Both the position numbers and the translations under genes were made by a program. From Letharia columbiana (lineage: Eukaryota > Ascomycota > Lecanoromycetes > Lecanorales > Parmeliaceae), in the NCBI RefSeq assembly GCF_014066305.1, contig NW_023501051.1:124001-188000 (forward strand): a stretch of 64,000 nucleotides of DNA, written 5' to 3'. This document shows, piece by piece, positions 8,168 to 42,585 of this stretch; position 1 is the stretch's first letter, and each line of letters opens with the position of its first letter. The notes beneath the pieces are model-generated. The model made no database searches. It worked only from the letters and a program-made list of their open reading frames with translations, and was not told the DNA's origin.

Positions 8168-10420
8168 ATGGTGCCAGCTAAGCCAAGGGTCCTCTACTGG
8201 TTCCGGACCGATCTTCGATTACATGATTCCCCAGCTCTGAAAGCTGCCCTTGACCTGAAGCCTGAATGTTTGTATCCTATATGGTGCTGGGATCCGCATT
8301 ATGTATACCGTGCGAGGGTAGGGCCGAATAGATGGCAGTATCTGTAGGTACCCTTTCTTCAATTCCAATGGCTGTTTTTTTTCATTGATCCTAGGTGCAC
8401 TCTTCTTTAGACTCGACTGCCAATCCGACCTCTCTGCCTCCATCACCAAGCTCAATCCCAAGTCGAAGCTTTTCGTCCTCCGGGAAGCACCGCAGACGGT
8501 GCTAGCGAAGCTGTTCAAGGCGTGGAAGATCTCGCATCTGGTCTTCGAGAAAGATACCGATGCATATGCCCGACAAAGAGACGAAGATGTTATCAAGCAA
8601 GCGGAAGAGGCAGGAGTGGAGGTCATTGTCAAGATGGGCAGGACGCTATATGATCCGGACGAGCTGGTGAAGGCGAATGGAGGAAAGCCGACTATGAGTA
8701 TCACTCAGGTGCAGCATGTACGGGGAGCGTCCTTGAATCTGCGCGAGAAGTATCGTGCTGATACCTTTCAGGCAGCAGAGAAGCTGGACGAAGTCGCAAA
8801 ACCAGTCCCAACCCCAGAGTCTCTTCCCGACCCCGGCAACGCATCCCTTGATTTCGAGCATACCCCGCCCTCCCCGAAGCCCGACTTCAACGACATCCAG
8901 CGCATTGACATGGAAAGTTCCTACACCCATCTTGCCGGACCTGAAGGCGACTTCGGGGTCCCTACCCTTTCCGAACTTGGTCTCAAACCTGCAACAACCC
9001 AGCATCGGGGTGGTGAGACCCTTGCCTTACGCGCCCTAGACGAGATAATCTCCAACAAAACCTACACAGCAACGTTTGCCAAACCCGCAACAGCACCCAC
9101 AGCGTTCGACCCCCAGTCAACAACCCTGCTATCTCCACATCACCACTTTGGCTCCCTCAGCGTACGGCTCTTCTACTGGCGCGTAATGGATGTACTCAAG
9201 GAGTATAAAGGCAAGCAAAGCACCATCCCTACGAACTTAATCGGGCAACTGCTCTTCAGAGACATGTATTTCGGGTACGTACATTTGGGAGCTGGTTCTT
9301 TCCAATCTGTAGTAAGATTGAGTCACAAGACTTGTCTCGGGTGCAAAAGGATCTTTCTATTTTCGATACCTGTCTTGCAACTCCAATTTCTACCTCGAAT
9401 AGGCTTTGCTGACTACGAAATCTGCGTAGAGCTCAAACGGCTCTCGGCTATTCCTTTGCTCAAACACACGGCAACAGCCATTGCAGATTCATACCCTGGC
9501 ATCTCCCTTCCAAAGTCGATCCGTCCAATGGCCTCGTAACCGGTGACCACCATATCGACAGTCCCGAAGCCGAGACGTGGTTCGATCGCTGGAAGTGGGG
9601 CAAGACAGGCTTTCCCTGGATCGACGCTCTGATGCGCCAACTCAGGCAAGAAGGTTGGATACACCATCTCGGCCGTCATGCCGTAGCTTGCTTCCTGACC
9701 CGTGGTGGCTGCTACATTGACTGGGAGCGTGGCGCCGAAGTCTTTGAAGAATGGCTCATCGATCACGAAGTCTCCTGCAACAGCGGTAATTGGCAATGGC
9801 TCTCGTGCACAGCTTTTTATTCGCAATTCTATCGCTGCTATTCGCCAATCGCGTTTCCTAAGAAGACGGATGCGAAGGGCGACTTCGTACGGCACTTTTG
9901 CCCTGAGCTCAAGGATTATCCGGAGAAATTCATCTATGAGCCATGGAAAGCGCCTGTAGCGGATCAGAAAAAAGCGGGTTGTTTGATCAAGGGTGACGGC
10001 CAGGAGACGGAAGACGGAGGGATGAAAGTCTATCCGAAACCTATGTTTGATTTTAACGCTCGCCGTTCTATCTGCTTAGATGCAATGAAAAGCGCATACC
10101 ACATTAACCTCTACGGTGATAACCTCAAAGTCAAAGATGGGACATGGCGCGAGCTCTTTCCTGACTCGGCCGAGGGCCCAACGGAGGGGAAGAGCGCAAA
10201 GGATGCGATCAATGGTGAGGAGACGGGGAAAAAGACAAGGCCGAAGAGGGGCGAGGAGGCGAGTGGCGACATGGGCGTTGATCAGGATGAGGGCGAGGCA
10301 GCGGAGGTTGGTGGGGAGACGAAAGGCGGTGATCAAGAGGGAAAGAGTCCTGGAAAGAGAAAGAGAAAGGGGCAGGGGACGTTGGATGCTCATTTTGGGG
10401 GAAAGAGGACGAAGAAGTGA
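8168..10420 (+). CDS. PHL1: cryptochrome / (6-4) photolyase family protein
   Basis: Flavoprotein of the animal cryptochrome/(6-4) photolyase clade, expected to repair UV (6-4) photoproducts in the nucleus or act as a blue-light regulator. Proposed exons are 8168-8343, 8411-9274 and 9430-10420, giving 676 aa. The N-terminal photolyase domain begins VLYWFRTDLRLHD (residues about 8-20). The C-terminal FAD domain has GFPWIDALMRQLRQEGWIHH (about 405-424), the GWIHHLGRH segment with the His pair used by (6-4) photolyases, and NWQWLSC. Conserved blocks join exactly across both introns. The start is the first ATG that precedes the conserved block in frame. The tail after about residue 590 is charged and Lys-rich (nuclear localisation likely) and ends near QGTLDAHF, which resembles a PCNA-binding box. 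Intron 2 is an introner-like element. The symbol follows Cercospora PHL1 by family resemblance; orthology was not tested. Confidence 0.9.
9275..9429 (+). mobile_element. introner-like element 1 (intron 2 of photolyase gene)
   Basis: 155-nt intron starting GTACGTACATTTGGGAG and ending CTGACTACGAAATCTGCGTAG-like, in phase 2 of a Gly codon. The last bases are close to the reverse complement of the first. Inside, 9317-9341 (with GAGTCACAAGAC) and 9361-9387 (with TGTCTTGCAACTC) are imperfect inverted repeats. The same ends and the same GAGTC-CAAGAC core recur in the intron at 16192. A CTGAC branch-site-like word lies close to the 3' end. These features fit the introner-like elements described in Dothideomycetes. 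Confidence 0.8.
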
Positions 10421-11000
10421 AGGACCTATTGCATCAGAACTGTCGCGGCGTCGGGGGAGAAAATGTTCCGGAGCAGCAGCTTTTGGACAAGCAGGCCAGA
10501 TTGGTCAGCATATGTATGCATCGCAGGTTCAGCTAGTGTAGTGGACTGTACGATCACACGCGTGCCGCTAGCTCTCAAATCTTCCCAATTACTACATCCC
10601 ATCAGCGGAGCATCGAGCACGCGACATTTGCCAGTCCATCCCCATTCGACCTCTGTCACGCAGACGACACACCTCCCCACTCCCCTCCCGTCCTTCCCTC
10701 CAGGAGACCACCATCCCGGCCCCCTGAACCCCCCCCGCCCGTCGTGATGGAAACAAACGGCGCAGCCGTGCTCCCACCGCCCCGACCCCCGGAAATGCTA
10801 CGGTGCTACGGGTGCTACGGAAGGCGGCGTCGAGAGGGCAGGGCAGGGAGGGAAAGTCTGCGTCGGTCGCATCGTGGGCTGCTGGGCATGGAGTGAGTAA
10901 GTGAGTGAGTGAGTGAGTGAGTGAGTAAGTGAGTGAGTGAGTGAGTGAGTGAGTGAGTGAGTAAGTGAGTAAGGAGGAAAAGAAAAAGGAAGGAAGGAAG

Positions 11001-11049
<49 letters not shown>

Positions 11050-11195
11050 AAAAAAAAAAAAAAGAAAAAAAGGGGAGGGTAGGAAGAGAAAAAAAGAGGG
11101 AAGGGGTTGGGGGGAAGACGCTCTAGAAAAAAAAAAAAATGTTTTGAATTCCCGGAAAAAATTTTCTTAAAAAAAATTTTGGGGGGGGTTTTTTG

Positions 11196-11273
<78 letters not shown>

Positions 11274-11922
11274 GCGGGATATGTATGGGGGGGGTTTGGC
11301 GCGGCGGAGGATCTAGCTGGGCGGATGGATTGAGTTGAATTGAATTGAATTGAATTGAATTGAATTGAATGGATGAATGAATGAATGCCGCTCTGACTCT
11401 GTCCGGTCTGGTCCGGAGGCTGGGATTTTCGTTCGTTGGGGCTGCGTAGTATTAGCAGTAGGAGGATGTTTCACGAGTGTTGTTGGAACCAAGGGTTGTT
11501 GGAACCAAGGCTCCGGAACGTGCGCGACAGGGCCGCAAGTTTGAATCTTGTTTCGTTGATAGGGATGCAACGAGGCGGTGTTCTGTCGACGCCTTGGGAA
11601 GGAATTGATTGTGCTGCGTTCTTTGACGAGAATGAAGCTTTTCTCTTTGTGAAAGGATGCTGGAGGCTTTTTGATAGACTGGGCGGTTGGGGTGGAAAGG
11701 AGTAGTGGAGAAGACATGGCTGCGGTCAATAAATTCTGGACAGACTCGCAGAGTCAATCTGTGAGAGTCGTCGCGAGGAGCACGAGCGGTTGCGAAGCAG
11801 TTAATGGATCATTGGGCATTTTCAAAGGCTATCATACACGTAAGTAATCATCAAGCATGCAGTTCAGACAGTCCTTTCGCTTCATAGGCTAGCTCCTGAG
11901 GGCTTCTTCCCCCAGCTGTTGC
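10421..11922. other. Intergenic, low-complexity and homopolymer-rich
   Basis: No convincing gene. It holds a GTGA/GAGT tetranucleotide array (about 10891-10973), two A-runs (about 10999-11063), a garbled A/T/G homopolymer stretch (11110-11195), a T-run (about 11196-11270) and a GAATT pentanucleotide array (about 11331-11370). The long complementary A and T runs with scrambled sequence between them look like a low-quality assembly join. The 3' ends of the photolyase gene and of the hydrolase gene face each other here. Short overlapping frames at 11.3-11.76 kb show no recognisable protein. Confidence 0.7.
10891..10973. repeat. GTGA/GAGT tetranucleotide microsatellite
   Basis: About 20 near-perfect copies of a GAGT/GTGA unit with a few GTAA variants, directly before the poly-A run. 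Confidence 0.9.
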
Positions 11923-13288
11923 CTACGGTCCTAATCCTTGAGCGATTAAGAATTCTTGGGTAGCCTTGTAAGCAGCCGTGGCGTTGTAGTGCAGGTTGAT
12001 AGCATGCCCAGTGTTTGGTTGAATGTAGACTTCGAAAGCCTTCGCTGCAGGGAAAGCCTTGGTCACTCCACCCGGGATTGATCCCCCTGCCAACGCCGGG
12101 TCACCAGTCGCCATGCAGTCGCCACCACAGAAGATGAAGTCCTGATCTGTGACAAGTTAGTAGGGTATCGCCCAAAATGGTCCGAGACTCACTGCCAACA
12201 AGAACCTGGACGGGTCCCTTGAACCCTGGTACCGTAGAAGGTGAACCACCAAGGGTGAGGACCTCGCCCGTAGTCAAAGGTTCCTTGGTTGACTCGGAGA
12301 ATTGAAGGATTGCCGGGTCGAAGAAACCTGGATAAAGGAAGGTTTTTTCGTTGCAGCTCGCGTTCGCCCAAGTAAGGTACCCGGTGGGAAGATCTCCGAA
12401 TCTTTGGGGCTGATCATTACGAGCCAACTTGCTGCCCCAGGCGTCGAAAGTTGCGTCTATGTAAGCGAAATCCTGGGAGAAGGCTGTGAGGATCAGGCCA
12501 TCACTGGCGGTAGGGTCCCTGATGCTTGGTCAGTCTGCATAGGTTCTGACCTTGAGAGGGAAAAGCAAGTGAGACTCTACATAGCTGCAAGGTTGTAGCT
12601 GAGGATGGAACCAAGGGAATGGCCAACGTGGACGATCTTCGAGAAAGCCCGAGGGACTCCTGGTAGACTGCCGCGACGGAGCATCATTGTCAACTCGTAG
12701 ATGGCTGACACCTCTGCCGGTGCTTGTATGATGCTGAGAGGGTCCGCGATCGAAGAATTCCCAATGCCGAGACGATCGATGGAGAGTGTCGAAAACCCGT
12801 ACTGATCAACAGCGACATCTATATAGCTGTAACTGTAGGAGTTGTAAGGAAGGTCCCAGTAACTATAGTCTACATGTTAGCTCTGCCCCACCTCGCATGC
12901 AAATCTGCAAGTGCGCTGGCACAGGCAACAGCAAGCTGAATGTTGCGAAACAGGAGCTGGCTTACGTCTTGTCAAAACCGATGCCATGGGTGAGGAATTG
13001 CACGGTTGGATCTTGTCCGAAGCCAGTGTCTGGCTGACAGAACTTGACACTGATGTCGTATGTTCTGTCAATCGTTCGATACCCAAGTAAGACCTCATTG
13101 GAGAAATTGCCTCCAGGGTTTGTGAAGTTCGCAAAGAAGGTCGTGGCATCGTGGTTGTCCTGTAAGGTAGGAAGATTGAAAGCCCCATTGCGAGCACATA
13201 GGGTGACTGGGACTGAGAAGTTCTGGCAGTGCTTCGCTACTACCGAGCTAGCAAGAAGGGCGGAGGCCACCAATGATGGAAGATACAT
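11923..13288 (-). CDS. secreted alpha/beta hydrolase
   Basis: Predicted extracellular serine hydrolase of the alpha/beta-hydrolase fold; the substrate cannot be told. Exons on the minus strand: 13288-12966, 12862-12581, 12518-12193 and 12146-11923, giving 384 aa. I chose the ATG at 13288 because the next residues (YLPSLVASALLASSVVA) form a typical signal peptide; an in-frame extension upstream lacks this. Motifs: LTHGIGFDKTYWD (oxyanion region, exon 1/2 junction), GHSLGS with the nucleophile Ser (end of exon 2), and a late GHAINLHYN with the likely catalytic His. Cys pairs and several Asn-X-Ser/Thr sites fit secretion. Three introns of 46, 62 and 103 nt restore these motifs. Similar hydrolases are common in plant-associated Dothideomycetes. 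Alternatives are an esterase or a peptidase-like member. Confidence 0.85.
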
Positions 13289-15730
13289 TGTAAGTCGTAG
13301 GAGCAATGAGCCTTTGAGAAGACGCGGCGGAGGGAAGAGAAGGTCTGACAATGCACAAGACTGGGAGGAACGAATGGCAGAAGTTGTGTGCGAAGAGTGC
13401 GGAGGAGGGATTCAAAAGGAGAGTAAATGTGGGGAAGCAGTATTTGAAGGGAAAGAAGCCGTTGTGATGTTTACCTATCGAGTTAGCGGTTTAGCTACCA
13501 TCTTGAACACATTCGCGTCATTCACTACGGTCCTCTTGCAGCAGATCTCCCCGTCACCTTATCAATGACCGTCGTGATTCACGGGATAGTCCCTCTCCCG
13601 ACTATGGTGCAGCCATAAGGATTGGACGGAAACATCGACACAGACAAGCGAACCCTTGAGTCGCTTCGTCCATCACCTGTGGGAGGTGATAGGCTCGCCC
13701 CGCGACTCAAATATGGGAAGTGGTATGGTCAAGCCTGAGCTGGGTTACATCTTCCAACGTGCGTGATTTGTGGGGCTGCCGGCATATGCTGCCTGCTCCT
13801 TAGGCAAAGCATCAGCATTTTCCGCCATAGCTGAGGTCACGCTTCGCCGCAGCAACGTTGTTTCGTATGTATGCGCACCCTCGGAGAGCGAGTGGAGAAG
13901 CCTTTGTTCCGTAGATTTTCGTCTGCCGTCGAGAAATTCGACCCGAGCGAAGGCTTGAACATGTTGCTCGCTGGGTGCGCTGAAGAATGGAAAGGGAATC
14001 TGCACCGGGTCGGAGGATGGCAAATGGTCAAGGCCCCTGCGGACCTGCGGGCCATTCCCTCTACTGCAAGCATGAAGATAGAATTAGGAATGGCGCGAAT
14101 TTGATAGCTGCAATATGCGAGTCATAAAGCGATATCGCATGCAGCAGTAATGTAGGTACATTACATACCTAAATAACATGCAGATTCACTCGTTAGTATT
14201 TGCCTATTTTTATTTATTATTGATGATGACGATGATGATGATGATCATGTCCTTTATCAAGAAACAACCTTGAGAAGAAGATGCCAGAGATTAAACTTTC
14301 AAGCTAACTCTGAGCAATCTGACACCTGCCTTGAGCCGCGAGTACTAAGCGTTTGACAGATATCCTATCGAGCCACATGCCTGTAATCATTAACCCACTG
14401 AGCAATGTCCATCTCGACAGACATACAACTACCTGTCGGCAGTAGGCAGCTGGCCATCAAGCATACTATCTCAAGCTTGGACTTTGGGGACAGGAAGTCA
14501 TACGCTTAGTGCTTAGTTACTAGCTGGCCAACAAGAGCAGGCCAAACGTTACCAAAGGCACACCTCGCCTTGTTGGGAGAAGAATCCCGGCCTCGCTGGA
14601 GGGTTCCAGTATCATTACCGTCGTCAGTTGCTTGTTCCAGCTGTCGCTTAACTGATCAACGTCGGCCTGTCTTTAATGTCCGAGCCCCACCATCCCAATC
14701 GTATCCTACCTTCCTCTCCAATCTGAGCTTAGTCTGGATCAGCAAAACAGATTCGAGCCTCCAGGGAGTCACTTTTCTGTGGTCCCGGGCTGCAAGTCAT
14801 TCTAAGTCGACTGTCACCCATCCCATGCACGACGGTAAATGAAAATTCGACGGAACGAGGTTCCAGAATGTTAGAGAGTCTGTGCCAAAACGGATACCCC
14901 CACTGGCCATTGCCTCGGGAAAAGGCGTCATGCAGCAAGCGATGAAGCGACTGTTCCTGAGAAGAAGCCATATGTAGACCCTCAACTTCAAAGATAACGG
15001 TGATATATAGCTATGGCCGAGGATGTTGCATCTTCGCTCTGTGGTAGCTCTTTGCGAACGGCGAAGCACGTCGTTCCACCGGGAGCACGTCTCACGTCTC
15101 CATGGAATCAAGCTGTCTGGCTCTCCCTGAATACCCTGCTGGCTCAGAAGCGAGAATCAGGAGAACAGGCGAGCATATGCATGCACGTACGCACGCATGC
15201 ACACGCATCGGTCCTGGTCTCTTGGCGTGGAGGAGCAGTATCTTGATGCAAATGCTTGTACCTATCTGCTTCTGCTCGTAGCCGGACGAAGCATTGATTA
15301 CTTTCCGGAAGACGTCTTGCTCGCCACGAGGAGCCCTCGGAGTTAATGCTGACGGCCCCTTTTATCGATCCCGGAGCTAAGTGTGCGGGGCACGATTAAT
15401 TCTCCTAGTACTAGTACCTCCACATAGGTCATAGACTTTCCACACTCGTAGAGATGTAGAGACGTAGAGATGTGTGGGCAAGCGATCATACGCTTGCAAG
15501 CCTACAACTTGTATCAGACATAAATTACTGTTTAGTGACGGAGTACAAAGTCATCATCTTTTGGTCTAATGGTAACGATTACAAAACCCGTCCCTTTTCT
15601 CATAGAGTCATAGGTGCCGTAATATATGGATGTTCATCCCTGTGTTCAACGTGGTCCGTGCCACCACACCATCCAGATGGACGCCCATTTTCTCTTTTCG
15701 CGCCGTTCAGCCTGAAATGCTAAGAACTTC
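13289..15730. other. 2.4-kb intergenic region
   Basis: I see no supportable gene on either strand. Open frames are short, overlapping and without family motifs. A GAT trinucleotide run lies at about 14220-14248, and a GTAGAGAC/GTAGAGAT short repeat at about 15449-15472. The 5' ends of the hydrolase (-) and the 15.7-kb gene (+) both face this region, so it should hold both promoters. Confidence 0.6.
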
Positions 15731-15731
15731 G

Positions 15732-16704
15732 AGCTGAATCTTCCTACTCCATCGTCCATCATGCCAACAACGGGGGCTTGCCATCCTCAAATCTACCAAC
15801 ATCCTCCCTGAATACCATGCCAACGTCTCATGCCACCAATATACGAACCACAGCTTCTGCACCTCCCATCTCAAACGTTGCCATTCTCGGACGCAGTCGC
15901 CATTCAGCACGCAGAATCTTATAAATCCATCTGTCAAGCCTGCGGAGGATCAAGATCCCTACGGAGGGTACTTGATCCCCCAGCCATCATCCTTTGTGTC
16001 TTCAATGCCCTCCGAGACTGTCTGCGTTATCATTTGCTAGCATCTGGATTGAACTTGACGCCGCCCGGGAGGCTTTGAAGCCATGTGTGAGCGTGCCACT
16101 TCCATGCCACTTCTCACCTAAAGACCACGTCTAATGGTCTTCTCCCCACAGGCTTCATACGCATCAACCCCTCTACCGCCCCTCTCAACCCGTACGTACA
16201 TGTCGGAGAAGACCTTCCTCTTTGCTACTGAAAATTGAGTCGCAAGACATGTTCAGGAGCAAATTGCCCTGTTCTGCTCCCGAGACCTGTCTTACAACTT
16301 AATCATCTACCTTGAAGAAGCAACGCTGATCCCGAAATGTGCGTAGACCAGGCGCAGCCCCAACCCTAACGACCATCTACGACGAAGCCGCCGCCACCAT
16401 TCAAACCTCCTCCGCGACCACATCCCCGTCAAATTCCCTCTCCAAGGAACCACCCACACCCAAGCAGAACTCCAAGCGCCGAAAGAAATCAAATCCGTTC
16501 CGTATAAAGGCCGCGAAAGAGGGTGTGGTAGGCACGGGGAAGGAGAAGAGGAGGACACAGACCATAGCGGATAGTTTGGATCTCGGCGGCGATCTGCAGA
16601 TGGATGCGGAGAATGGTGGGAGCAGGGTGGGGGGTGAGGGCGGTGAGACATTAGTTAGGAGGAAAACCGTCGCGACGGAGATAGGGTTGGGATCGGTCCC
16701 CTGA
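15732..16704 (+). CDS. unrecognised multi-exon protein, 5' end unresolved
   Basis: A consistent reading frame runs through four exons: up to 15967, then 16041-16084, 16152-16191 and 16347-16704. The joined frame reads EDQDPYGG/IWIELDAAREALKPC/FIRINPSTAPLNP/PGAAPTLTTIYDE, with phases 2, 1 and 2 fitting at all three introns (73, 67 and 155 nt). The last exon is rich in Ser, Thr, Lys and Arg, with a basic patch KRRKKSNPFRIK that could be a nuclear localisation signal. It ends GLGSVP at 16704. I did not recognise the family. The first exon in this frame has no ATG after the stop near 15731, so at least one upstream exon is missing from this model. The third intron is an introner-like element. The phase agreement at three junctions is the main evidence that the gene is real. 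Confidence 0.55.
16192..16346 (+). mobile_element. introner-like element 2
   Basis: 155-nt intron, the same length as the one at 9275. It starts GTACGTACATGTCGGAG and ends CCCGAAATGTGCGTAG. The two ends are near reverse complements. The inner arms 16235-16261 (TTGAGTCGCAAGACATG) and 16275-16302 (ACCTGTCTTACAACTTAA) are also inverted repeats, so most of the intron can fold into one hairpin. It splices in phase 2. Confidence 0.8.
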
Positions 16705-17768
16705 ACAGCCGTTTGAGCCATGGAAAAGCCAGAAAAGTTGTCTTACACTTTTGGTATCGGGTGGGTGCGAGGTACGTACATCTCGGCGCCGACCCTTCCC
16801 ATTCGGTAGCAAAATGCAGGCCACAGGCCATCGTTCAATGCCAGAATCCTCCCATGCTCTCCAGAACTCTCCGTCTTTTTTATCTTCTTTTCCCCCTCAT
16901 TTTTCACTCACAACCGACCCCCCCACATCCCAACAGCGAACCCATCTTCCCACCCCTCTCTCTCTCTCTCTCCTCTGTCCAATCTCATCTCAGTCTTCCA
17001 TCCCATCCCAACACCTTCTCCCCCCATCCCCTATCATCTACCTACCTACCTACCTACCTACCTACCTACCTACCTACCTACCTACCTACCTACCTACCTA
17101 CCTACCCAGCCAGCTCATCCGTCCGTGCGCCAATTCCCCTCATCCATCCATGCCAGCCCGCCCCTTCTTCCCACGTGAACGAGACAGACCACCGTGGAAG
17201 GGGGGTTGGCATGGCATGGTTGCCGTTTATGGGTATTGTTGAGGCCTGCTGTGAGATCGCGTGGCTAAATTTTGAGGAGGATGGGGGTGGGCTGGTATGG
17301 CTGATGGAGGGGGGGGGCGGGGAGGCGGGGAGGTCGGTATTGAAGCTGGCGGGCTGGATGAGGTGGGTGGGAAGAGGGGGATGGAGGGGGATTTGTCTTT
17401 TGGGGAGTTTTCAACCACTACGGGAGCGAGAGCATGGTTGGGTACCTTACTTTCGTTTCCAATGCTGAGGTCGGCTGAATTTTCGTCAATCCGACAACAG
17501 GTTGACGTTCACATACATGAAGATCACGAGGTCTGCGGCTTTGGGAACACTTGTCATCTTTGCATTAACATTTGTGAAAAGATTTACTGAGAGAAGTATA
17601 TAGTCGAATGAAAAGAGCTTTTTGAAAATTGGCACAGGAACTTGGCCAACAACAGATGATGAGTGCTCAGCCTCGAATCGCAAGTCGTGTCAGTGTATGG
17701 TCGCGTCTCGGTTAGCAAAGAGACCCATGCTAAAATGCAGCGCAATGTCAGACGGCAGCACCAAAGCC
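16705..17768. other. Intergenic region with CTAC array
   Basis: No gene supported. It contains a C/T-rich stretch (16850-17040), a long CTAC tetranucleotide array and a G-rich stretch (17290-17400). At 16772-16786 the word GTACGTACATCTCGG matches the 5' end of the introner family, but no matching 3' end follows. It lies between the 3' ends of the 15.7-kb gene (+) and the Zn2Cys6 gene (-). Confidence 0.6.
17037..17106. repeat. CTAC tetranucleotide microsatellite
   Basis: About 17 uninterrupted CTAC units. The overlapping open frames are repeats of Tyr-Leu-Pro-Thr and are not taken as genes. Confidence 0.95.
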
Positions 17769-29995: not shown

Positions 29996-32900
29996 ATGGC
30001 CGATATCCCTGCCCACTTGGACGAGGGCAGGCCAATAACCCTTCTGTATGAAGCTAATGTATCATTCTTTTCCAACGATCCGCCGGCTAATTCGTGCTAG
30101 TCCTGTGGGTTTGAAGGAAGCGGCCCTCGATTCTCCAACATTTAGATCGGGGTTCACTCACTTCTCCGAGCAATTCGACCTCGTGGAGAAATGGCTAGAA
30201 GGCTACGTAAAGTGTACTTCAAGGTTATCACACGAAGTTGCAAATTTCGAATCTTTGGTCAACGGATTCCTTACACAGACGACACCGCCTACCTACCTTT
30301 CCGAGGCCGTCATTGATCATGACTACACGTTGCTGGCAATGAAGAGATATAGCGAGGGTGCGAAGGAGTTTTGGACGGCAACCATGTCTGGACTTAGGAA
30401 AATTCAGGTGAACATAGTAGAACCTATCCGGACTTTTCTCTTGAACGACCTTCGATCGTTCAAGGAAACTAGGCGAAATCTTCATGTCACGCAGAAGGAG
30501 CTTGATAACCTGCACTCACGCTACTCCGGTCAAGCCAAGACCAAGGAAGCTTCATCTTTGCGAGAAGACGCCTTCCAACTCCATGAAGCGCGAAAAGCCT
30601 ATTTGAAAGCATCGATGGACTTCAGTGTCACAGCGCCACAGCTACGAATGGCACTAGACAAGATGCTTGTGAAAGTATTCGCAGATCAATGGCGCGACAT
30701 GCGGACCCCTCGGCAGAACATAAGCGGCTCTATCGGAAAGTGGGGCAGTGACATTGAGAGAGTCAGAGGTTGGAGTCGTGAGATGGAGAATGGGGAAAAA
30801 TCCTTCCGACGAGAGCTCCAGACTGCCAGGAAACAGATTGAAGAGAGCGCGGAAGCGGCGTCTCGCCCCTCACGCGAACTAGAGGATTATGCTGTTGGGT
30901 CAGCCTCGGCATCCGCGGTCAGAGCGCCTTCTACTACCAACCTGCAAACGCCGGGTGGTAGACCACGATCTGCCAGGTCTGAGAAACAAGGCTGGCTTAA
31001 CTTGCGGACTGTCTCGGGAAAGCCCTCAAGGACTACATGGCTCCGGAAATGGTTTTTTGTGAAAAACGGCATTTTTGGGTGGCTCGTACAAGGCACTCGA
31101 TCTGGTGGCGTTGAAGAAAGTGAGCGCATCGGACTTCTACTTTGTAATGTGAAGCCTGGTAATGCGGACGACCGAAGATACGTATTCGAAGTGAAGACCA
31201 AAGACACCACTATAGTCGTCCAGGCTGAGACCGCTCCTGAACTAGTGGAATGGCTTGCAACGTTTGAGATTGCCAAACAGAAAGCTCTTGAAGACCCAGC
31301 AAGCACGGAGTCTCCCGGTCTCGGTCCTCGGGCTCAAGATCCTGCCTTTGCGATCTCTCCCCCAAGCGCACCAGAATTTGCTGCAAGTGCTGCTGATTCT
31401 GGGATGCCACAACACACGGACGACAACTCCGGTACATCCGGACTGGACCGAAGCTCAACTCTCCCTGTGCCTGGAGGAGACCCTTCTGCTAATAGGAGCA
31501 GCTTCGATGTCACCAGTCATCGACGCTCGTTCACCGAGAGAGAAGTAGATGTTAGCAGAGATCCTGCGTCGAGAATTATACAGAGGCTAGATCTTCATCG
31601 GAAGCCATTGGGAAGTGATAAATCGGCTGGCTCGCTTGCTAGCCCTGGACTTTCTGGAGGCGGTATTGCTAGTCTTATAGCAGCCAGTCACACGTCCATG
31701 CCCGTTGGACCTGGAGCGCTACCAACACCTCCGCCGTCCGAGACACCAGTATCAAGGAAATCGTCTGCACCGATTCTTAGCATGCGAGATCTACCTATGA
31801 GCACATTAGCCCCCAACACCCTAGCAAACCCACCTGCACCCACGAATCTTAGTGCAGCAGCTGTGATCGTTAATGGCGAGAAAGGTATTGGCGTAGGTCG
31901 TATAGATGCGTCAGGTGGTATGCCCAGCGGTCTCATGGCCAACATATGGGGGAGTGCAAATTGGGGTCATCTCAATAGGCTGGAACGTGGTGAGGTAAAA
32001 TCTCCGCAGGAGAAGCCTATGAAGTTATCAGACCCACCAAGCCCTATGGCTCGCCCCTCGAATGCTTCTTCTGCAAGCGGATCTCCTCTTCACAACGCCG
32101 CAGTCTTGGGAGCTAGCGATTCGGCCTCAGGCTCTATTGGACTAGACAAGACTACCGGCATGCCATCAGCACCATTCCCTTCACATCGTAAAACTATCAG
32201 CCTTGGTGGGGACGAGAAAAACGAGAGCTCTCAGCTAGACTATCCCAATTACTATCCGCTGCAGCTCAAGATGCAAGACGCGCAGTTCCGACTGTTGTTT
32301 CCCAATGTGCGTCGAGATGAAAGACTTGTATTAGTATTTAAGGCCACGTGGAGTCCGAACGAGCAACAAGAGTTTCCAGGAAGGATCTTTGTCACTGCTA
32401 AAGAGATTTATTTTTACAGCAATCATTGTGGTTTAACTTTAATCACAGGTGTCGGCCTTGACTCAATCTCAGAGATCACAGCGGCGACGGGAAAAGAATG
32501 TGACTTCGTCTTCTGTCATATGAAGAACAATAACAACCAAACAACCGGTTACAATCGCATCACGATCAAGACCTTTATAGAACCGCTTAGTCTGCTTCAG
32601 CGGCGACTCAACTTCTTGGTGCGGAACCGCACATCACAAGGGATTGGCATTGAAGAGATCATGAAGACTCTCATTAAGATGGAGCAAGATGATCCGGAAA
32701 GCAGCCCGAGCATAGACAGCTGGGAAAACGTATCCATCAATACGCCCACTGATGGCGATTCAACCCCCAGGCGCAATGCATCCCACAGGGATCAGCGAGA
32801 CCTCAGAGCGAGTAAGGCACCTTTCGTTGTTATCTCTTCCTATTCGAGACTGCTTTTGAGTCGCGAGACATCTTGGAGGAACAAGCTGCCCATTCTGCTC

Positions 32901-34877
32901 CCCTTTCTACTCCCCAGTTATGTCGTATTACTCAAATCTTATCAATGAGTGGTAATACTTACTCCGAAATGTGCTAGGCGTGTTAATTGACCGAGGGCTG
33001 TATGGGAGTAGCGCTCTCCAGCTAGACAGCGCAGGAGACAGTAGCAAAGCCTTCAAACTTCCGAAGCAGCCTATCACATATGCTCCATCCGGAATGGACA
33101 AGTTGGTTTTGGAGAGAAATTGGGACATCAGCCCGAAGGCTCTGTTTCATATTATGTTTGGAGATAAGAGTGTGGTATGGTACGTGCAGTTCGGAGCAAC
33201 TGATCCTTCCTGATTTTCACGAGCTCCGGGTTTCAAAGACCATCTTTTGAGACCAGAGCGCTCTTCTGATTCCCCGATCCTAGGTCACAATTCGGCCTCT
33301 TGCCCTGAAAAAGCCATGCTGACTCTTAAATCTGCATAGGCAACTTCTGTATCACGAACGGCGGGCTCGACGTGAGTGGTTTTTGAGACTTTTGGGGCTT
33401 TCATTACCACGTAGACCACGCTGACAGCTTCAAAGACATCAAGCAAAAACCGTGGAGTAACCAACTGGAACACGGGTACTTGCGTCGTGATTTCGAATAT
33501 CAGATCGAGTATCTGGATATTTTGAGTAAGCAGCTCTTATAAGACAATCGCCATTCTCAGCCCCAGCTAACTGGCCTTCACCCAGGACGAGTACGGATTG
33601 CCACAGTTGAAGACCACCAGATGGTAGAGGTGGCTAATGAACACCTCTTATATGTTATCTCGGACCGCAAGCGCCCTTGGCATCTCCCACATCGCGATAG
33701 TTTCCTCCTGCTCACTAAAGTGGTCATCACTCATCTGGCCAAATCAAAGTGCAAATTGGCCGTCTATACCAAGGTCGAGTGGACTAGACCTCCACCTCTT
33801 ATGAAGGGTACGTTGCCCATCCGTGGTTCCGCATTCTGGAAACATGCTGACAATGATAAGGTATTGTTGCCGAAGCAGCACTGAAGGGACTTGAGCTTGA
33901 CGCCTTGGACTTAGCAGACGTGATTGCGGAGCAAGTGAGGAATTTTGCAAGTGCCCATGGTCGAACGAAGAAGGCGATCCAGATCTTTGGCTCGGTTGGG
34001 CTCCAGACGCAAGTTTCTTTGTTTGCTGGGAACGATGCGCCATTGACATCGCAGTTGCGGCGTAAAATGAGGCGCCGAACTTTGACAGCGCTCGCTTTCG
34101 AGTCTCTTGGTTCGCTTTTGGAAAGTGTCGCCACCTCGGCAGTGCAGATAGTGTTTGACCTTGTACGATGGACCTGGAAAACGATCGACGCAAATAGCGT
34201 TCTGCTCGCCATTCTGGCAACGAGTGTCTTCGTCAACGTCATCTTCTCTTCAACGGGCACGTCCGAGTGGTGGAGGGAACGGAAAGCTGGCAATTTTATG
34301 ACTAGGTTGGGAGTCGGGCCAGACCTCACAATGAGCAAAGCCGTCTACCTGCATGAGATTCATGAATTTAACGCTCTGGAACTTGACCTTCGAGAAGCTT
34401 CTAGCAGTCAATGGTAAGTTTAATTCCGAGTCCCTTGTTGGTAGCCGGCAGCAACGATCTTACTGGTCTTGGTGTAGTCGAGATACCTTTAGTAGCGTCA
34501 TGAATCTTGGAAATGATTATGCACATCAGCAATCACAACAGCTCCCCTCTATGAGACCTTCGCAGACTCCAGCAGCTCGTCGTCTACAGAGGAGCCGAGA
34601 ACACTTGGGCTTCCAAAGACATGACTTGCTCGTGGCAATGCGAGTGATCAATAACATCGAGCGTGAGATGCTGCAAGCCGAGTGGGAGAACTGGCTCTTA
34701 GAAGAGAACGTCAAATGCAAGCATTTAGGGGCTATGCTGAGTCACAACACTACAGGGAAAAAGAACAGTGGGCAACATGTTTTGGATGGCGAATCCAGAC
34801 ACCTCGAGGAGGTCCGGGCGTGGCAGAAGCAATACTGCGACAGCTGTAACAAAGAGCTGGAAACCGTGGTGATTTGA
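29996..34877 (+). CDS. BAR-PH-GRAM-VASt sterol transfer protein (Sip3/Ysp1 type)
   Basis: Membrane-anchored protein of the LAM/StART-like family that moves sterol at ER contact sites; the yeast relatives with the same order are Sip3 (Lam3) and Ysp1 (Lam1). Exons: 29996-30045, 30101-32811, 32978-33179, 33340-33371, 33436-33525, 33586-33807, 33861-34413 and 34478-34877, giving 1419 aa with all phases consistent. A BAR-like helical region covers residues about 20-270 and PH about 310-410 (GWLNLRTV, TWLRKWFFVKNGIFGWL). A Ser/Pro-rich linker follows, then GRAM about 738-860 (FRLLFPNVRRDERLVLVF, EFPGRIFVTAKEIYFYS), VASt about 950-1125 (LVLERNWDISPKALFHIMFG) and one TM helix about 1214-1232 (SVLLAILATSVFVNVIF). 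The C-terminal ERE-rich helix is conserved in the family. Introns 2 and 3 are introner-like. Confidence 0.92.
32812..32977 (+). mobile_element. introner-like element 3 (diverged 5' end)
   Basis: 166-nt intron in phase 1 of a Ser codon in the BAR-PH-GRAM gene. Its 3' end, CTCCGAAATGTGCTAG, and an inner TTTGAGTCGCGAGACAT match introner 2; the inner block continues with GGAGGAACAAGCTGCCC, then TTCTGCTCCC. The 5' end (GTAAGGCACCTTTCGTTG) has drifted from the GTACGTACAT form. It is probably an older copy. Confidence 0.7.
33180..33339 (+). mobile_element. introner-like element 4
   Basis: 160-nt intron starting GTACGTGCAGTTCGGAG and ending CTGACTCTTAAATCTGCATAG-like, in phase 2 of a Trp codon. It lies 202 nt after introner 3 in the same gene. 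The middle has diverged from elements 1-3, but the ends, length and phase fit the family. Confidence 0.7.
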
Positions 34878-35703: not shown

Positions 35704-37364
35704 ATGGCAGAGCACCCAGAAAGACCTCTTCATGTTCGAGCCGAGACTTATGGTGGCTGGCACACCCAACTTCCGGACGACTCGATATTCGAGTCCACAT
35801 TTGGACAGATATCATGTTCACAGGGTCACGACCAATCCGCTGAAGACTGTAATATTCGACAGCAAGATGCAGTTGGCTGTTCAATGTCGAATAACCTCAA
35901 ATTACCGATGCCGACCCATTTTCGCCACCCAATGCGAAAGCTACAGAGCCCTTGGAGCGACGGCTATGACTTTTCTTCAATTGAGTCCGCGCATGTCGGC
36001 TTCGGCTCTGATCTAGAGCCAACGGAGCTTGAAGCTAGTCACAGTGCGGTCAACAACAGCCACAGCGAGGCTTTCAAACATCAGCTAGCGCTGGATCAGG
36101 TAGAGCCTTCGGGCTTTTATTTGCGCTCTCCAATCTCAGGTCTTTGGCCCTTATACTTGCTACCTCATTGTGTTGAAGGATTCAGCTGATTGTTCCTAGA
36201 TCTTTCAGCCGCAACCAAAACATCGTTCCCCGGTTTCAATACGGCCAACTTCGAGTCGTATTTTGGCTTCGATGCTTCAACAGCCTCGGCGTATGGTAAC
36301 TTCCCTGCGGCATCGAGCCCTAGTGTTGCCGATTCTTCACCGCGAGCTCACTTTCGCATATCACCACACGCTGGATCATCTCGTGGTAGAAGCCGTTCTG
36401 ATGGCTTGCTAGCGGTATCTAGAGCCGAGTACCAATCGCATCTGATCAACAGCACCGTCAACATGCTAGCCCCTGCCTCCCATAGCTCACAGCCATCAGA
36501 TTCGCCGGAGCTGACACCAGGCATGGCGGAAAACGCCGTCGACTCGTTTTCTCAATCACCATCAACAACCTTCTCAGACTTGGACTTCGACTCTAGGTCT
36601 TTTGACCATGCAATGGCTCTCGCAGAAGCCAGCTACTCAGCACAAATCTCAGAGGACACTCCGAGTCACGCTTTGCAAGCAAAGTTCCATCCTGCTAAGC
36701 AACCCAAGAGTTCACCCTGCAGGCATCGCGAATCTTCCCCACCTGACCTCTTCGCACCCCTGAATATTACTCCCGTCACCCCTCCCCGTTCAGAAAAAGT
36801 CCGCCACCAGTCCCTCCGATTTCCGAACGATCTCTACACTCCTCTATACGTCCGTAACCACGGCATCAAGCGTGAGGGGTGGTGTGGCATCTGCCGCCCG
36901 GGCCGCTGGTTAGTACTCAAAAACAGTGCGTTCTGGTACGACAAGAGCTTCATACACGGCATCAGTGCTGCGAGTGGCAGGCGGTTTGAAGAGCCGGTGG
37001 AGGTGAGAAGGACGACTGGAAAGGTCAATGGGCAAGGAGAGGGGAAAGGGGTTGGGCAAGGGGATGGATGGGAAGGATTGTGTGGGACTTGTGGAGTTTG
37101 GACGACACTGGGAGGAGGGAGGAGAGGAGGTGTGCCGTGGTTTCGCCATGCTTATAAGGTAAGTCTTGAAATTTTGAGGAATTGGGGGGGGGGGAGTTGT
37201 GATGCTGATGACTGCAGTGTCATACGCACCCCAAGGTGCAAGATATGCCGAAAAGGAGACGGGAGAGCAAGGGCGAGAGGGTTTCGACGACGATGACGTC
37301 TAGACCTGTTGGTAGTGGAGGAGGAGATGATGGCGCTGATGGGGACGCCAAGGAAATCCTGTGA
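35704..37364 (+). CDS. Rua1-like transcription regulator (Cys-rich C-terminal domain)
   Basis: Likely nuclear regulator with the C-terminal domain first defined in Ustilago Rua1, the activator of ustilagic acid genes. Exons 35704-36139, 36200-37158 and 37218-37364 give 513 aa; both introns (60 and 59 nt) keep the frame. The C-terminal domain has the family pattern GIKREGWCGICRPGRWLVLK, NSAFWYDKSFIHGISAASG, EGLCGTCGVW and, across the last intron, WFRHAYK/CHTHPK. The Cys and His residues probably bind zinc. The N-terminal two thirds are rich in Ser, Pro and Thr and probably disordered. The start at 35704 is the first ATG in frame; a TTCTTCAG just before it could be a splice acceptor, so an earlier exon is possible. 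The target pathway cannot be inferred. Confidence 0.85.
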
Positions 37365-38138
37365 TGTGCCCAAGGATTCTTGGACCACCGTGTGTCTGCA
37401 CCTTCTTTGACATTCCGCTTTCGGGAACTGCTGTCTGGCTGGGTAATAGTCTTGCTGCGTAATTTGTCTCTTGGGCGGTAGTAGTCTTGTTTCATACTAT
37501 CCTTACATACACACATCAGGGCTTGGTTTTTCTTTACATGCAGAGTGAGAATCTGACGGTAGTAGACGACTTATGGAATGTCTGAATGGTCGGGCTTCTT
37601 ACCGTGATATGGCCCTCAAAGGGTGGTTTTACCCCAAAATCTTTATATTCTCTGCTCGCCAGTCCCCTTCGCGGCCGCCTTCACAGCGGACGATTGCCTC
37701 TTACCATCGATGTGCTTGCCTCCCAATCACTAGACTACTGTCCAGAGTTGTACTTAACGATCGTCTTATGTAACTTCCTCGGAGGCGGCCTAAGGTTCGA
37801 GGACCAAGACAAGGATGCAAAACTCACATATTTGTCTGCCCTGTATTTCTCTAGCCGGAGCCATTTACCGACAGTGTTCAAACAGCTGCTCCTCGTAGAG
37901 ACGTTATCAGGTTGATGAGCAGCAGGATTAATTCAAATTTTGAATACTCAACCCTCTTTACACTGACAGGATCTTACGCTTTATTGCCTTAGTCTTGCCT
38001 TGGCGTAGGTCGATTGGGCCTAGCGCCATTCAGCTCAGCTTACTTTATATCGTGCACTTTCACTGTGCAACATAATTAAAGTATCAACCATACGAAGATT
38101 CTACATCAACTCAATGATCTCGAGTCCCTGACACAAAG
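37365..38138. other. Intergenic, 0.77 kb
   Basis: I see no gene. Short frames at 37.57-37.92 kb lack any recognisable feature. Confidence 0.5.
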
Positions 38139-38987
38139 ATGCAAGTCATGTGCGGGTCCCTGATTCGCCATGTCAAAAACAGTCAGAAGATGCCGAAGCA
38201 GCCCGAGACACAAAACCGCTGGTTCACGCTACCTCGTGAGATACGTGATATGGTCTACCGTGAGGTTCTATGTAAAAAATACTTGGTCCAATGGTCAGCG
38301 AGGTGGAAAAGGGGAAAGGCTGTGTTTAACGACGATAGACCTTTATTCTGGTTTAGGGGCAGACACTGGTCCTGGAGAGGACTCTTCTGGATGATTAAGA
38401 GACCACTGTTCTGGGCCGACATTGCTCTACTCTTGACGTCACAAGCCATCAGTCAGGAAGCAATCGACATCATGTATGAAGGAAGCTCGTTCTGCGTTTA
38501 TTTGGGGCAGCAATCGATACGATGGTACCGCATGACCCCGTTACCCCCTCAGCAACTGTTGGCTCGTATGCAAAATTTCGAGATCGGAATGTGCGTGTGT
38601 GACACCCTGGACCGCACAGCAAGCGAGACCTGGTTCAAGAATTTCGACGGCAGTCACACCATGCGCAACACCTGCCGCATTTCGTTTCCCTGCTACTACT
38701 GCCTACTCGAGTTATACGACGATCATGCACTCTTTTCACGAGCCTGTCGGTCTCTCGTTGGCTTCAAGGCAGTGACCATCACGCTTCAGCTCCCCTGTGC
38801 ACATGCAGACTTAGAGGAAGAATTGTCAGAACTCTGTAATTCGATGAGGGAAGGTTTCAAGACGGCGTTGGAACCTGACCTTGGGCCTGGCCGTTGCTAC
38901 GATGTTGAGCACGCTTTCTTTCTGGAGTTCCATCCTCGCAAGTATCTCGAAGATGTTCAGGCAGTTCTGCCAACGTCGGCAGGGTGA
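38139..38987 (+). CDS. LPxEIR-motif protein (2EXR/DUF7730-like), function unknown
   Basis: Intronless, 282 aa. Begins after a short basic stretch with RWFTLPREIRDMVYREVL, the F-box-like/2EXR opening motif that is expanded in Dothideomycetes and Sordariomycetes. Next comes a Trp-rich segment (WFRGRHWSWRGLFWMIKRPL), then LLLTSQAISQEAIDIMYEGS, which is also typical of the family, and a Cys-containing C-terminal half. Alternative start at 38190 (MPKQPETQ). Members have no assigned biochemical role; a protein-interaction or F-box-like role is only a guess. Confidence 0.75.
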   Translation: MQVMCGSLIRHVKNSQKMPKQPETQNRWFTLPREIRDMVYREVLCKKYLVQWSARWKRGKAVFNDDRPLFWFRGRHWSWRGLFWMIKRPLFWADIALLLTSQAISQEAIDIMYEGSSFCVYLGQQSIRWYRMTPLPPQQLLARMQNFEIGMCVCDTLDRTASETWFKNFDGSHTMRNTCRISFPCYYCLLELYDDHALFSRACRSLVGFKAVTITLQLPCAHADLEEELSELCNSMREGFKTALEPDLGPGRCYDVEHAFFLEFHPRKYLEDVQAVLPTSAG

Positions 38988-41667
38988 GCGCTTGTCCTCG
39001 GGGAAGATACTGAGTCTGAGGCTGCGACATGATGAAAGTGCTCCTTTTCGGAGGAACTCGCCAAGGTCAAGCAATGATTGTGGTTCAGAGCTGGAGAACT
39101 CGTCATGAGCTTTCCAATAGTACATGAAAATCCTCCGGGGTATCCATCCACACTGAATCCTTTCTCGGCAACGAACACTCGAATGTAGGGTTGTGCTTGT
39201 GAAATTTGCAAGACTCTCCTCCCTCCTAATCTGTCACATCAACGCAACTTTCCCACCAAGAAGCATATAACAAAGCGATTGTTGCCAAAGAAATCCGCTT
39301 GGCATTATCCATGACCAACAGAGGCTCTACTTGGGCTCTTCGCACCATATCTTCCGCTATCTCGTACTCTGGCAGAGTTCTTGTTTCAGGGGGTAAGACT
39401 TATAGGGACCCTTTAGGCGTCGATCACCAGATTCCGGAGGTCAGGTCCCAAAACCTTAGGCGTTCTTAGGGCACAAGTCCCGAGAGCTGGGCGTCAAACT
39501 TTCCCACCACCCCGGTTGCCTCTCATCATAAGTCAAGAACGACTGAAGCTACAAGAGGTATCTCCAAAGCACATTTACAATCCATCAAACTATCTGAAGA
39601 TTCACAGTCAAGGACTTAATTGTATCCTTCATTTTTGGGAAGCTATCGCATTGCCACATCTCCTTTGAACTTCTGTGCCTTGACCGTGCCAGGAATGGGA
39701 TACTTTTCGCTTTGGTCATGTCAAGTCCGGGAGGCCAAGCAACACAAAAAGGATGGACTGAAGGAGCAGAAAGGTCTGGAGAGGCAGGATATCGGCGCTG
39801 AAGTGGGTAGGGTGTCAAGGCGTGAAGGATTTTCAGGACGTTATCGTAGATTAACAGTTGGCCAATCATGCCAGGATAATGTAGATTGAGTACTTTACGA
39901 TTCTAGGTATTCATAGCAAGATGATGTAAGGGTTCCCCCCTAAACGAGGATCGCCCGGGTAGAGTACCGTACCGAGAAAATCTACCTTAATTAATACGAG
40001 AAAATGCCCACCTGAAATCTGGCCTGCTACACGCATACGCCGCTCTTTGCTCTAAATTTGTCCGGACAAACATAAACTCGGTTCGCTTACTCTCAGTAGA
40101 TTCAAGCCCTCAAACTTACGGAGGTTGCCACCGAAAGTCCTGAACATGCGCTAAAACCCTTGGCATTCTTGGCATTTCTAGCATTTTGGCAAATTTCTTG
40201 AATAGCTTCATAATCTACATACGATGTTTCATATAATTACGTATGTACTGATTTGCTCGGTTAGCTGGATCATAGGGCCGCTTATCCCCTCCTTCACGGC
40301 CCTCCCGATACTCGTTACCGCCTCGTAAACGAATAACTTCGGCAATATGTCTAGGCATACGCTGCTATCGCTACTGTGCACACAGTAATATCGCAACTGT
40401 ATACCCCGTATGCATGCAGTAATATCGCTACTATGTACTTCATATGCATGCACTCCATATATATAGCATTGATGTCGCTACTATGCAAAGCATTGATATT
40501 TAAGATATTCAAGATATTTGCCAAGAAGAAACCTAAACTCGTTTCACTAACTCTCCGTAGGTTCAGGATTCGGTCAAAACTAGCTAGACGAGAATCCCAA
40601 CTTTCGTTTTTGGAGGAGAGATCTGGATTGTTCCTGGTTCGGGCGACCCGTCAGGGCGGGGCCCCGTCAACCGGAGTGCTTGGGCGCTTTTGATAGGGCT
40701 GAAACATCAAAGCGCTTGTACTGGTACTAATCTTAGTACTCGGAATATATTTAAGGCCCGAGGCGGCCAGACTCAAAATGCAATGAATACGATGCAACGG
40801 CCCAATGCAACGCTCTACTCTTTTGGTAGAAGACCATGGTAGACAAGTGGTGGACAGTCTACAGAAGGTGCTGGAAAGAGTCGATCCCGTCCAGAAGATC
40901 CTCACCTCTATTGCTTCCATTCCTTGGGCTTTATCACTTTTTTCAAGGCTCCATCCACTCCGATCTCTGTTATCGGGAAAGGTAAAACCCCCGACTTTAT
41001 AGTCAGACAACGCTCCTTGTCAGCTTACTTGTTCGCTGTCTTCAATTCGAGACTCGTGACAGAGAGCAATGTTAGGGTCGTGATATGTCTGCGTTGTGTC
41101 GAGTATAAGTCTGCTAGTCTCCTCCGAAAGGAGCGATTGGTTGCGACCCTTGAGTCTTTCCAACGCAAAACTTTGCTCACAACATATTGCTTCCGCAAAT
41201 GTACCCGTCAATGACACTCTATTTCGGTCGTATGTCTTATTACCTGGAAATGTGCATCTCATCGAGAGGGAGAAAATGCTATTCGTCAAACGTGGACATG
41301 CTCTCCCAATCCTCCATATGCAGTCGCCCGTGTTTTTGCAGATCATTACAATATCCATCGTTCATGTCCATAGGTATCGAGAGTTCCGACTCGGACATGC
41401 CCGGCCTCACTGACAGCATGACATGATGGCTTCGCGACCTCCTTAAATGCGTGAGTCTTTACCCCAATGCAGGTAACTCCTATTCTAAGCTTTCGGTACC
41501 TCCCTGTCAAAGTCTCATGACACTGCCGAGATAGAGGCGAGCACCGATGATGGCGTGCTTAGGAGAGCGATCCTGGCGCGTATACATCCTCTCCACTGCC
41601 CCCAACACAAGAGCCTATCCAATGTCTCTCAAATGCATGATCTTTCAGCCTGGGAAGTTGCAGGTCA
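38988..41667. other. 2.7-kb intergenic region with short diverged repeats
   Basis: No supportable gene. At 40350-40490 there are several imperfect copies of a unit with CAGTAATATCGC, CTACTATG and ATATGCATGCA. Two longer related segments at about 40066-40115 and 40528-40578 both contain AAACTCG and ACTCTC...GTAG(A/G)TTCA. The area looks like decayed repeat sequence, less altered than the left-end block. Confidence 0.55.
40350..40490. repeat. Imperfect tandem repeat with TATCGCTACTATG core
   Basis: The words TATCGCTACT, CAGTAATATCGC and ATATGCATGCA recur three or four times with variation over about 140 bp. Open frames through it are not convincing genes. Confidence 0.6.
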
Positions 41668-42585
41668 ATGCTGCAAAAACCATCCATGACGGAGTCTTCA
41701 TTGCCTGTTGCGACGATCCGCCGCTGCCTCTACAGGGATCTTGACCGGGTCATTCCCATCTACAATCACTACGTCTCCAATACCATCGTGTCCTTGGACC
41801 TAGACACCAAACCTATCCTATACATGCAAAAGTTGTACAACTCCGTCCTCGATCAGGATCTGCCCTTCCTCATCGTAACCATCAGCAATGATCATACTCC
41901 CGCTCGCAAAGAAGAAGACATCATAGGTTATGCATACGCAAACTTTTACCGCCGCTTGCCTGCCTTCGGCGGTACCGTCGAAATTCTCATCTACCTTGAC
42001 CCAAATGCCACGGGCCAAGGGATTGGGAAGAGACTGCTGGACGTTCTGATGGTGACGTTGAAGGAGGTCACTCCGGCTACCGACCGGGACCATGGTATCA
42101 GGGAGGTGTTGGCGATTGTACCTGTGGATGAAGGGCGTGATGCTAGTGGATTTTTTCGGAAAGGGGGGTTCGAGGACAGGGGATTGTTGAAAGGAGTTGG
42201 GTGGTACGTATATTTCGGAGTATATCCTTCCTGTTCGATAGCAGATAGCTTCACTCCTCCGCAGTGTCCTTTTGTTGGGGCTGCATGCTATCTTTTCGGG
42301 ACCAGAAAGCTTCTTCACTCTCCAGCACTGTCTTTTTGTTTGGGTGAAAGGCCAGGGTTTGGCAGCAAAAGGATTTTTCAGCTCTCTCAACTGGTCTCAT
42401 TTCTCGGGATTACCTGAAAACAGCGACACTGACTCTGAAATCTACGCAGGAAGATGGGGAGGTGGATTGACACCAGAACTTTTCAACGGTCCCTTGCTGA
42501 GGAGCCAAAGGATGGAGAGAAGGCCGTGCAGAAGAAGAGACAGCCAAAGCGACACTGGTGGAGCTCTGTGTTTCGCCGAAGATGA
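41668..42585 (+). CDS. GNAT N-acetyltransferase (phosphinothricin acetyltransferase-like)
   Basis: Probable acetyl-CoA-dependent N-acetyltransferase. Exons 41668-42203 and 42450-42585 give 223 aa; a second ATG at 41686 would give 217 aa and better fits the usual start (TIRRCLYRDLDRVIPIYNHY). It has the order expected of the family: IIGYAYANFYR (beta 4), VEILIYLDPNATGQGIGKRL with the acetyl-CoA-binding Q/R-x-x-G-x-G/A loop, and GFFRKGGFEDRG. Across the intron comes GVGW/KMGRWIDTRTFQRSL, the classic final strands. The tail is basic. The substrate (amino acid analogue, polyamine or antibiotic) is unknown. Its only intron is a large introner-like element. Confidence 0.88.
42204..42449 (+). mobile_element. 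introner-like element 5 (long form)
   Basis: 246-nt intron in phase 2 of a Trp codon. It starts GTACGTATATTTCGGAG and ends GACTCTGAAATCTACGCAG, and the two ends are near reverse complements. The middle is longer than in the other copies and holds the related words CTCCGCAGTGTCCTTTTG and TCCAGCACTGTCTTTTTG, so it may contain an internal duplication. Confidence 0.75.

Follow-up and report, generated by a model that had tools for sequence, protein, structure and literature searches.

Five introns in a stretch of the genome of the lichen-forming fungus Letharia columbiana (contig NW_023501051.1, positions 124,001 to 188,000; 64,000 nucleotides (nt), hereafter the window) raise the question of whether they are copies of one element that spreads from gene to gene and, if so, by which route it is copied and what decides where it lands. 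A preliminary description of this DNA had proposed that they form a related family of introner-like elements (ILEs). We found that the five introns are mutually related beyond chance, and it is near certain that they belong to a large introner-like family. The two exon bases between which a copy lies (positions −1 and +1) depend on the subfamily of the copy, and this dependence is a new targeting feature that we did not find described for introners. The five introns are as follows, with the site written as −1|+1 and with sets S1 to S6 as given further below.

9275..9429, + strand: introner of 155 nt, set S4, site G|A, phase 2, in a cryptochrome/photolyase gene; no such intron in the open reading frames (ORFs) of relatives
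16192..16346, + strand: introner of 155 nt, set S1, site C|A, phase 2, in a host gene without a Pfam match
32812..32977, + strand: introner of 166 nt, diverged GTAAGGCAC form, site A|G, phase 1, in a BAR/PH-domain gene
33180..33339, + strand: introner of 160 nt, diverged, site G|G, phase 2, in the BAR/PH gene that also hosts 32812
42204..42449, + strand: introner of the long form, 246 nt with an additional internal stretch, site G|G, phase 2, in a GNAT acetyltransferase gene

The coordinates were confirmed, with GT..AG ends, as were the four unrelated host genes and the placement of four of the five introns in phase 2. The introns could be aligned over their full length, and both termini are conserved; 32812 begins GTAAGGCACC, not GTACGTACATTT. 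A covariance model built from 22 copies, two of them from the window, recovered the other three introns in the 64 kilobases, namely 32812 (E 8e-12), 33180 (E 3e-10), and the 3' part of 42204 (42285-42449 only, E 4e-4). No Rfam family was found for 4 loci (E up to 0.5). Removal of the introns left plus-strand frames of 647, 152, 1019 (both BAR/PH introns removed), and 232 amino acids (aa), against 60, 94, 34/66, and 101 aa in the next-best frames of the hosts of 9275, 16192, 32812/33180, and 42204, respectively. The host of 16192 is thus the weakest case. Comparison with relatives showed that unspliced stretches of other introns are still inside the 647-aa cryptochrome/photolyase frame.

How large the family is was assessed genome-wide in the assembly (161 contigs, 52,243,142 bases), with reversed patterns as controls. 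The 3'-end pattern (up to 3 mismatches) gave 75 + 83 matches on the two strands (158) versus 0 + 2 for the control, the core pattern (up to 3 mismatches) 37 + 40 versus 0 + 0, the 5'-end pattern (up to 2 mismatches) 84 + 83 versus 5 + 6, and a second 3' pattern 65 + 73 versus 2 + 1; because the ends are inverted repeats, the last two counts include some opposite ends of the same copies. A BLAST search with 16192 returned 58 candidates, of which 40 were scored; apart from the query itself, they show 73-89% identity, and the alignments span most or all of the length. In 296,913 bases of fetched loci, 195 matches were found at E 1e-2, including 122 copies with both ends (one allelic pair counted twice), a lower bound that is biased to young subfamilies. 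Since the loci were fetched by similarity or pattern to these, old subfamilies were under-sampled. Many copies beyond the five in the window are therefore present.

Such identity bears on the simplest alternative, that these are old introns at conserved positions whose ends are alike by chance or through shared splice signals. Splice signals do form part of the shared ends, and the comparison with relatives is informative here. At the 9275 site, the best 120 of 3005 homologues all cross without a gap within 8 aa, and the nearest one listed (P0121, 88%) contains an apparent translated intron elsewhere, for which reason we take it as a genomic ORF without the 9275 introner. At a second locus, C12_1049710, the best 120 of 659 homologues likewise all cross gap-free, and 16 of 40 homologue rows, at 86-94% identity, end at the NLVTLL read-through of the query, which marks these 16 as unspliced genomic ORFs. 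Any orthologue with the intron would be split and thus lie outside the length window of the search, and the lack of such orthologues in the list carries no meaning. These results support a probable recent gain of the introner at both loci compared with relatives' genomic ORFs, with no conserved old position at either; chance similarity and conserved old introns are refuted for these two loci, and as an account of the family this alternative has a negligible probability. A search for an empty allele inside the assembly, carried out at 8 of 16 prepared loci, matched only the two halves of the query loci themselves.

Seven chosen junctions of copies with their hosts are seamless. We examined seven proteins, picked for having well-known homologues (flavin monooxygenase, mannose-6-phosphate isomerase, glutathione reductase, cryptochrome, ABCG transporter, Rab GTPase, and malic enzyme), and all seven were ungapped at the insertion site against solved homologues; in cryptochrome, a one-residue gap lies five residues downstream of the site. 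Three of these introners (flavin monooxygenase, Rab GTPase, and malic enzyme) interrupt a Gln codon (C^AA or C^AG), and as the solved homologue also has Gln there, the CA is older than the insertion. The insertion of an additional codon is ruled out by these junctions. A flush repeat of at least 4 nt, as expected of a target-site duplication (TSD), was present in 0 of 58 copies; among the registers scanned, one stood out (29/58) and corresponds to the C at −1 plus GTA versus CGTA within the 3' end, and a TSD in the scanned registers was rejected for these copies. Recruitment of one splice site from the target, a trait of DNA-transposon introners, was also rejected, as both splice sites lie inside the element in the copies examined and the seven chosen junctions are seamless. 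In a single case (C34_215976), an introner directly abuts the AG of an older, longer introner. The −1 base at the target of the abutting copy is therefore part of an intron, which speaks for DNA or unspliced RNA (precursor messenger RNA, pre-mRNA), rather than mature mRNA, as the substrate of insertion.

Copies were found mainly in the sense direction of genes. Among 63 unique full-length copies, the spliced sense frame was longer than the antisense frame in 54 (median 192 versus 87 aa, p 1.5e-9) and reached at least 100 aa in 55, compared with 23 for the antisense frame. Removal of one further base shortened the frame (median 165, p 4e-6), which indicates that the boundaries are exact, and the GT-AG signals and reading frames are compatible with predicted splicing. 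Adjacent matches lay on the same strand in 52 cases versus 1, a count that partly reflects pieces of one long-form copy. Phase was clear for 52 copies, of which 27 are in phase 1, 13 in phase 0, and 12 in phase 2, an excess of phase 1. Together with the many further copies and the gain at both loci compared with relatives, this placement bears out the proposal that the introns are introner-like elements.

The association of subfamily and landing site was tested in two unbiased ways, by clustering on intron sequence alone and by nearest relatives. With the 122 copies clustered and clusters of at least 4 retained (51-80 copies per cut), cluster membership predicted the exon bases at −1 and +1 with p 0.001 at four cut levels. 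Position −2 was borderline and inconsistent (p 0.02-0.18), and no association was found at the other exon positions out to 6, including +2. In a column-wise test of 69 copies, none of 100 shuffles reached the values at −1 and +1, and p at +2 was 0.01. After removal of one allelic copy, the nearest relative had the same −1/+1 pair in 52 of 121 copies (shuffle mean 17.8, maximum 34), without signal at the outer positions. The preferred pairs, each of which makes up about 6-7% of nearby dinucleotides, are best seen in sets S1 to S6, which were hand-picked from the dendrogram with the flanks in view and use 64 of the 122 copies, with 58 left out.

S1 and S2: C|A in 24 of 26 copies
S3: G|C in 11 of 15 copies
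S4: G|A in 7 of 8 copies
S5: G|G in 8 of 9 copies
S6: T|G in 4 of 6 copies

The consensuses of S2 and S4 do not differ in their terminal 24 and 22 columns, and those of S1 and S6 have one difference at each end, yet the targets differ within both pairs. Half of the S4 copies start with GTTCGT, and the four that start with GTACGT are also all G|A. Thus, neither the inverted-repeat ends nor splice-site strength alone sets the target. Insertion at random followed by a splicing filter, by which copies survive only at flanks that permit good splicing and the flanks needed vary by subfamily, would have to accommodate these pairs, as the donor, branch-site, and acceptor regions of the S2 and S4 consensuses are identical. 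In its favor, donors of the GTTCGT type (half of S4 and most of S5) sit behind G, and a G ahead of a weak donor would aid splicing. However, a C at −1, as in the C|A of S1 and S2, is unfavorable for U1 pairing. We regard this filter as quite improbable. It is possible, and we propose it only tentatively, that the introner lineage itself, rather than ends, splice sites, or host alone, fixes the landing dinucleotide. If so, the determinant would be carried by the element, as an internal guide or structure or as one exon base carried on each side as microhomology, and would act in a seamless, sense-strand-specific insertion pathway that we did not find described for introners.

The same observations bear on the copying route. 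The preliminary description had read the terminal inverted arms as a sign of transposon-like copying, which in its specific form would mean a non-autonomous DNA transposon, a miniature inverted-repeat transposable element (MITE), that brings its own splice sites and depends on a transposase supplied in trans. Such an origin has been proposed for many algal introners. The ends of the Letharia elements are indeed inverted repeats, the whole 155-nt element is a near-palindrome, and PMC9860276 gives an example of introners with terminal inverted repeats (TIRs) but without TSDs. The transposon-like route nevertheless fits poorly because flush TSDs were absent, because placement is strand-locked and genic, though intergenic copies should escape negative selection, and because targets show strand asymmetry and vary among subfamilies whose consensus ends are the same, which argues against transposition driven by the inverted repeats. 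In a non-exhaustive search, three 5' ends with a partial model match resembled introners in decay, not the terminus of a long element, and a long autonomous element behind such ends was not supported in the three cases inspected. A MITE origin is therefore unlikely in our assessment.

A further alternative is templated insertion by microhomology, in which the source intron would be copied along with a single flanking base at either end and inserted at a break with matching edges, so that each subfamily would inherit the −1/+1 pair of its source gene. This would explain why a clear dependence on subfamily is limited to −1 and +1, whatever the ends of the element; that 5 of 9 S5 sites read G|GTG and the +2 result of the 69-copy test are also in its favor. 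The weak and inconsistent −2 position and the lack of association at +2 in the cluster test speak against it, precise joining at neighboring bases on either side, free of insertions and deletions, is demanding, and no source gene was found. We give this route, too, a small chance.

RNA-mediated or templated insertion into transcribed genes appears to fit these data best, and we consider it fairly probable that the family is spreading now, or did so recently, in L. columbiana by copying via excised intron RNA into transcribed genes. The mobile unit would be exactly the intron, with its donor GTACGT, a branch-site-like CTGAC, and the acceptor TAG or CAG inside the near-palindrome. The excised intron RNA may be kept intact by its own hairpin and may then be joined into the exposed coding strand of a transcribed gene, either by spliceosome-mediated reverse splicing or by capture at a break, and copied into DNA. 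The new copy would lie in the sense direction at a dinucleotide typical of its subfamily, with no exon base lost, gained, or duplicated, would be spliced from the mRNA of its new host, and would then slowly decay.

The hairpin on which this scheme draws is real. The consensuses of the six subfamilies have folding energies of −53 to −73 kcal/mol (z −4.8 to −8.5 versus mononucleotide shuffles), with the outer stem present in all six and a branched inner part in S4 and S6, and on the consensus alignment 87.1% of cells are paired versus 27-47% when the hairpin is slid. Of the five window introns taken as single molecules, 16192 alone folds far better than its shuffles (z −4.4); folding is weak or moderate in the other four, with z −0.4 for 9274-9429 (one exon base included), −2.0 for 32812, −0.9 for 33180, and −1.8 for 42204.

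Several results weigh against the proposed RNA route. The paired cells are not in significant excess over shuffles of the 3' letters (86.2%, with the observed value reached by 37 of 500), doubly changed pairs numbered 4 versus 2.1 expected (56 of 500 shuffles), and a separate search for compensatory pairs found none; the fold may therefore be mere inherited palindromy, and selection on the hairpin would seem to gain no support from covariation. No one column of the intron was found to pair with the −1/+1 bases across the six consensuses. Plain reverse splicing predicts AG|G-like sites, unlike the C|A favored by the putatively youngest subfamilies. In 9 of the 63 copies, the sense frame was not the longer one. 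We also infer splicing, the RNA intermediate, and the joining chemistry from sequence. The only one of the nine exceptions that was followed (C40_393458, 99 aa sense and 288 aa antisense) proved to be a sense insertion in the malic enzyme gene, and the frame-length test is therefore conservative.

Other features of the window and of the fetched loci are listed here.

8322..10417, + strand: host frame of 9275 with the introner removed, 647 aa, cryptochrome/photolyase
41641..42582, + strand: host frame of 42204 with the introner removed, 232 aa, GNAT
16772..16876, + strand: probable decayed introner, 5' end retained, 3' end indistinct
Long-form copies: C34_280028 1501-1717; C5_642148 1501-1718 (minus strand); C1_1501395 1301-1520; window 42204-42449

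The decayed sixth copy starting at 16772 was found at E 0.0098 in one model search and at E 1.6e-5 in another (model positions 1-45); downstream of 16876, a tetranucleotide-type repeat appears as a recurring YLPT in trial translation. In the long-form subfamily (about 217-246 nt), the match to the 155-nt model is split into a 5' part, an additional internal stretch, and a 3' part. Several S3-like copies (c10, c33, c48, c67, c68, and c80) have one additional base ahead of the acceptor (GCGTAAG, GCGTTAG, and GCGTCAG), so that the last three intron bases are variable in this group. At C4_678862 (reverse complement, around 1515-1525), a GTAAGGCAC-type introner, like 32812 in the window, follows another introner and begins 1 nt past its acceptor. 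Three contig pairs have a common introner insertion with its flanks and are probably allelic, namely L017/L018 (C109/C77), L020/L025 (C68/C101), and C1_603558/L131 (C1/C140). A triploid-like signal is reported in PMC10512270 for the sample behind the assembly.

Fungal introners might be copied by reverse splicing, by DNA transposition, or by break repair, and about five related branches with near-identical ends and differing landing dinucleotides make the choice among these routes testable by comparison. ILEs of Capnodiales and other Dothideomycetes were reportedly described by van der Burgt et al. in 2012. The preliminary description had likened the window introns to them; the introner-like identity stood, but the host is a Lecanoromycete, and a KRI1 exon in the window shows 98% identity with Letharia lupina. 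By description, not by sequence, the two are alike as multi-copy introns in unrelated genes, also with more than one in the same gene, and in their recent gains, the decay of older copies, and predicted folds that are stable, as far as the account in PMC4457414 extends. An AG/GY site preference is attributed to ILEs in a passage of PMC8469720, whereas that of the Letharia family is specific to the subfamily, with C|A in the putatively youngest.

The internally symmetrical sister introns and stwintrons of Hypoxylaceae, as characterized in PMC8469720 and PMC12403724, share with the Letharia family near-palindromic sequence, long terminal inverted repeats, seamless insertion, a lack of TSDs, and, as predicted for Letharia, function on the coding strand. 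The Hypoxylaceae sister introns are described there with dozens of copies and no site or phase bias, in contrast to the larger copy number, subfamily dinucleotides, and phase-1 excess (27/52) found here. Among the Letharia copies, one abuts another introner and one lies within 1 nt of another; nested [D1,2] arrangements, as in Hypoxylaceae stwintrons, were not found among these. The introners of Gozashti et al. 2022 (PMC9860276) are likewise families of similar introns enriched in genes; the ascomycete families are described there as having neither TSDs nor TIRs, whereas the Letharia family lacks TSDs but has inverted-repeat ends. Neither "Letharia" nor "lichen" occurs in its main text, and its supplement may list the species; with that possible exception, we found no report of introners in lichen fungi or Lecanoromycetes, judging by titles and the openings of abstracts. 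The Letharia family is thus a known kind of element, in a lineage for which we found no earlier report, with a new targeting feature, and with it the study of recent gains of introns from introners can be extended to lichen-forming Lecanoromycetes.

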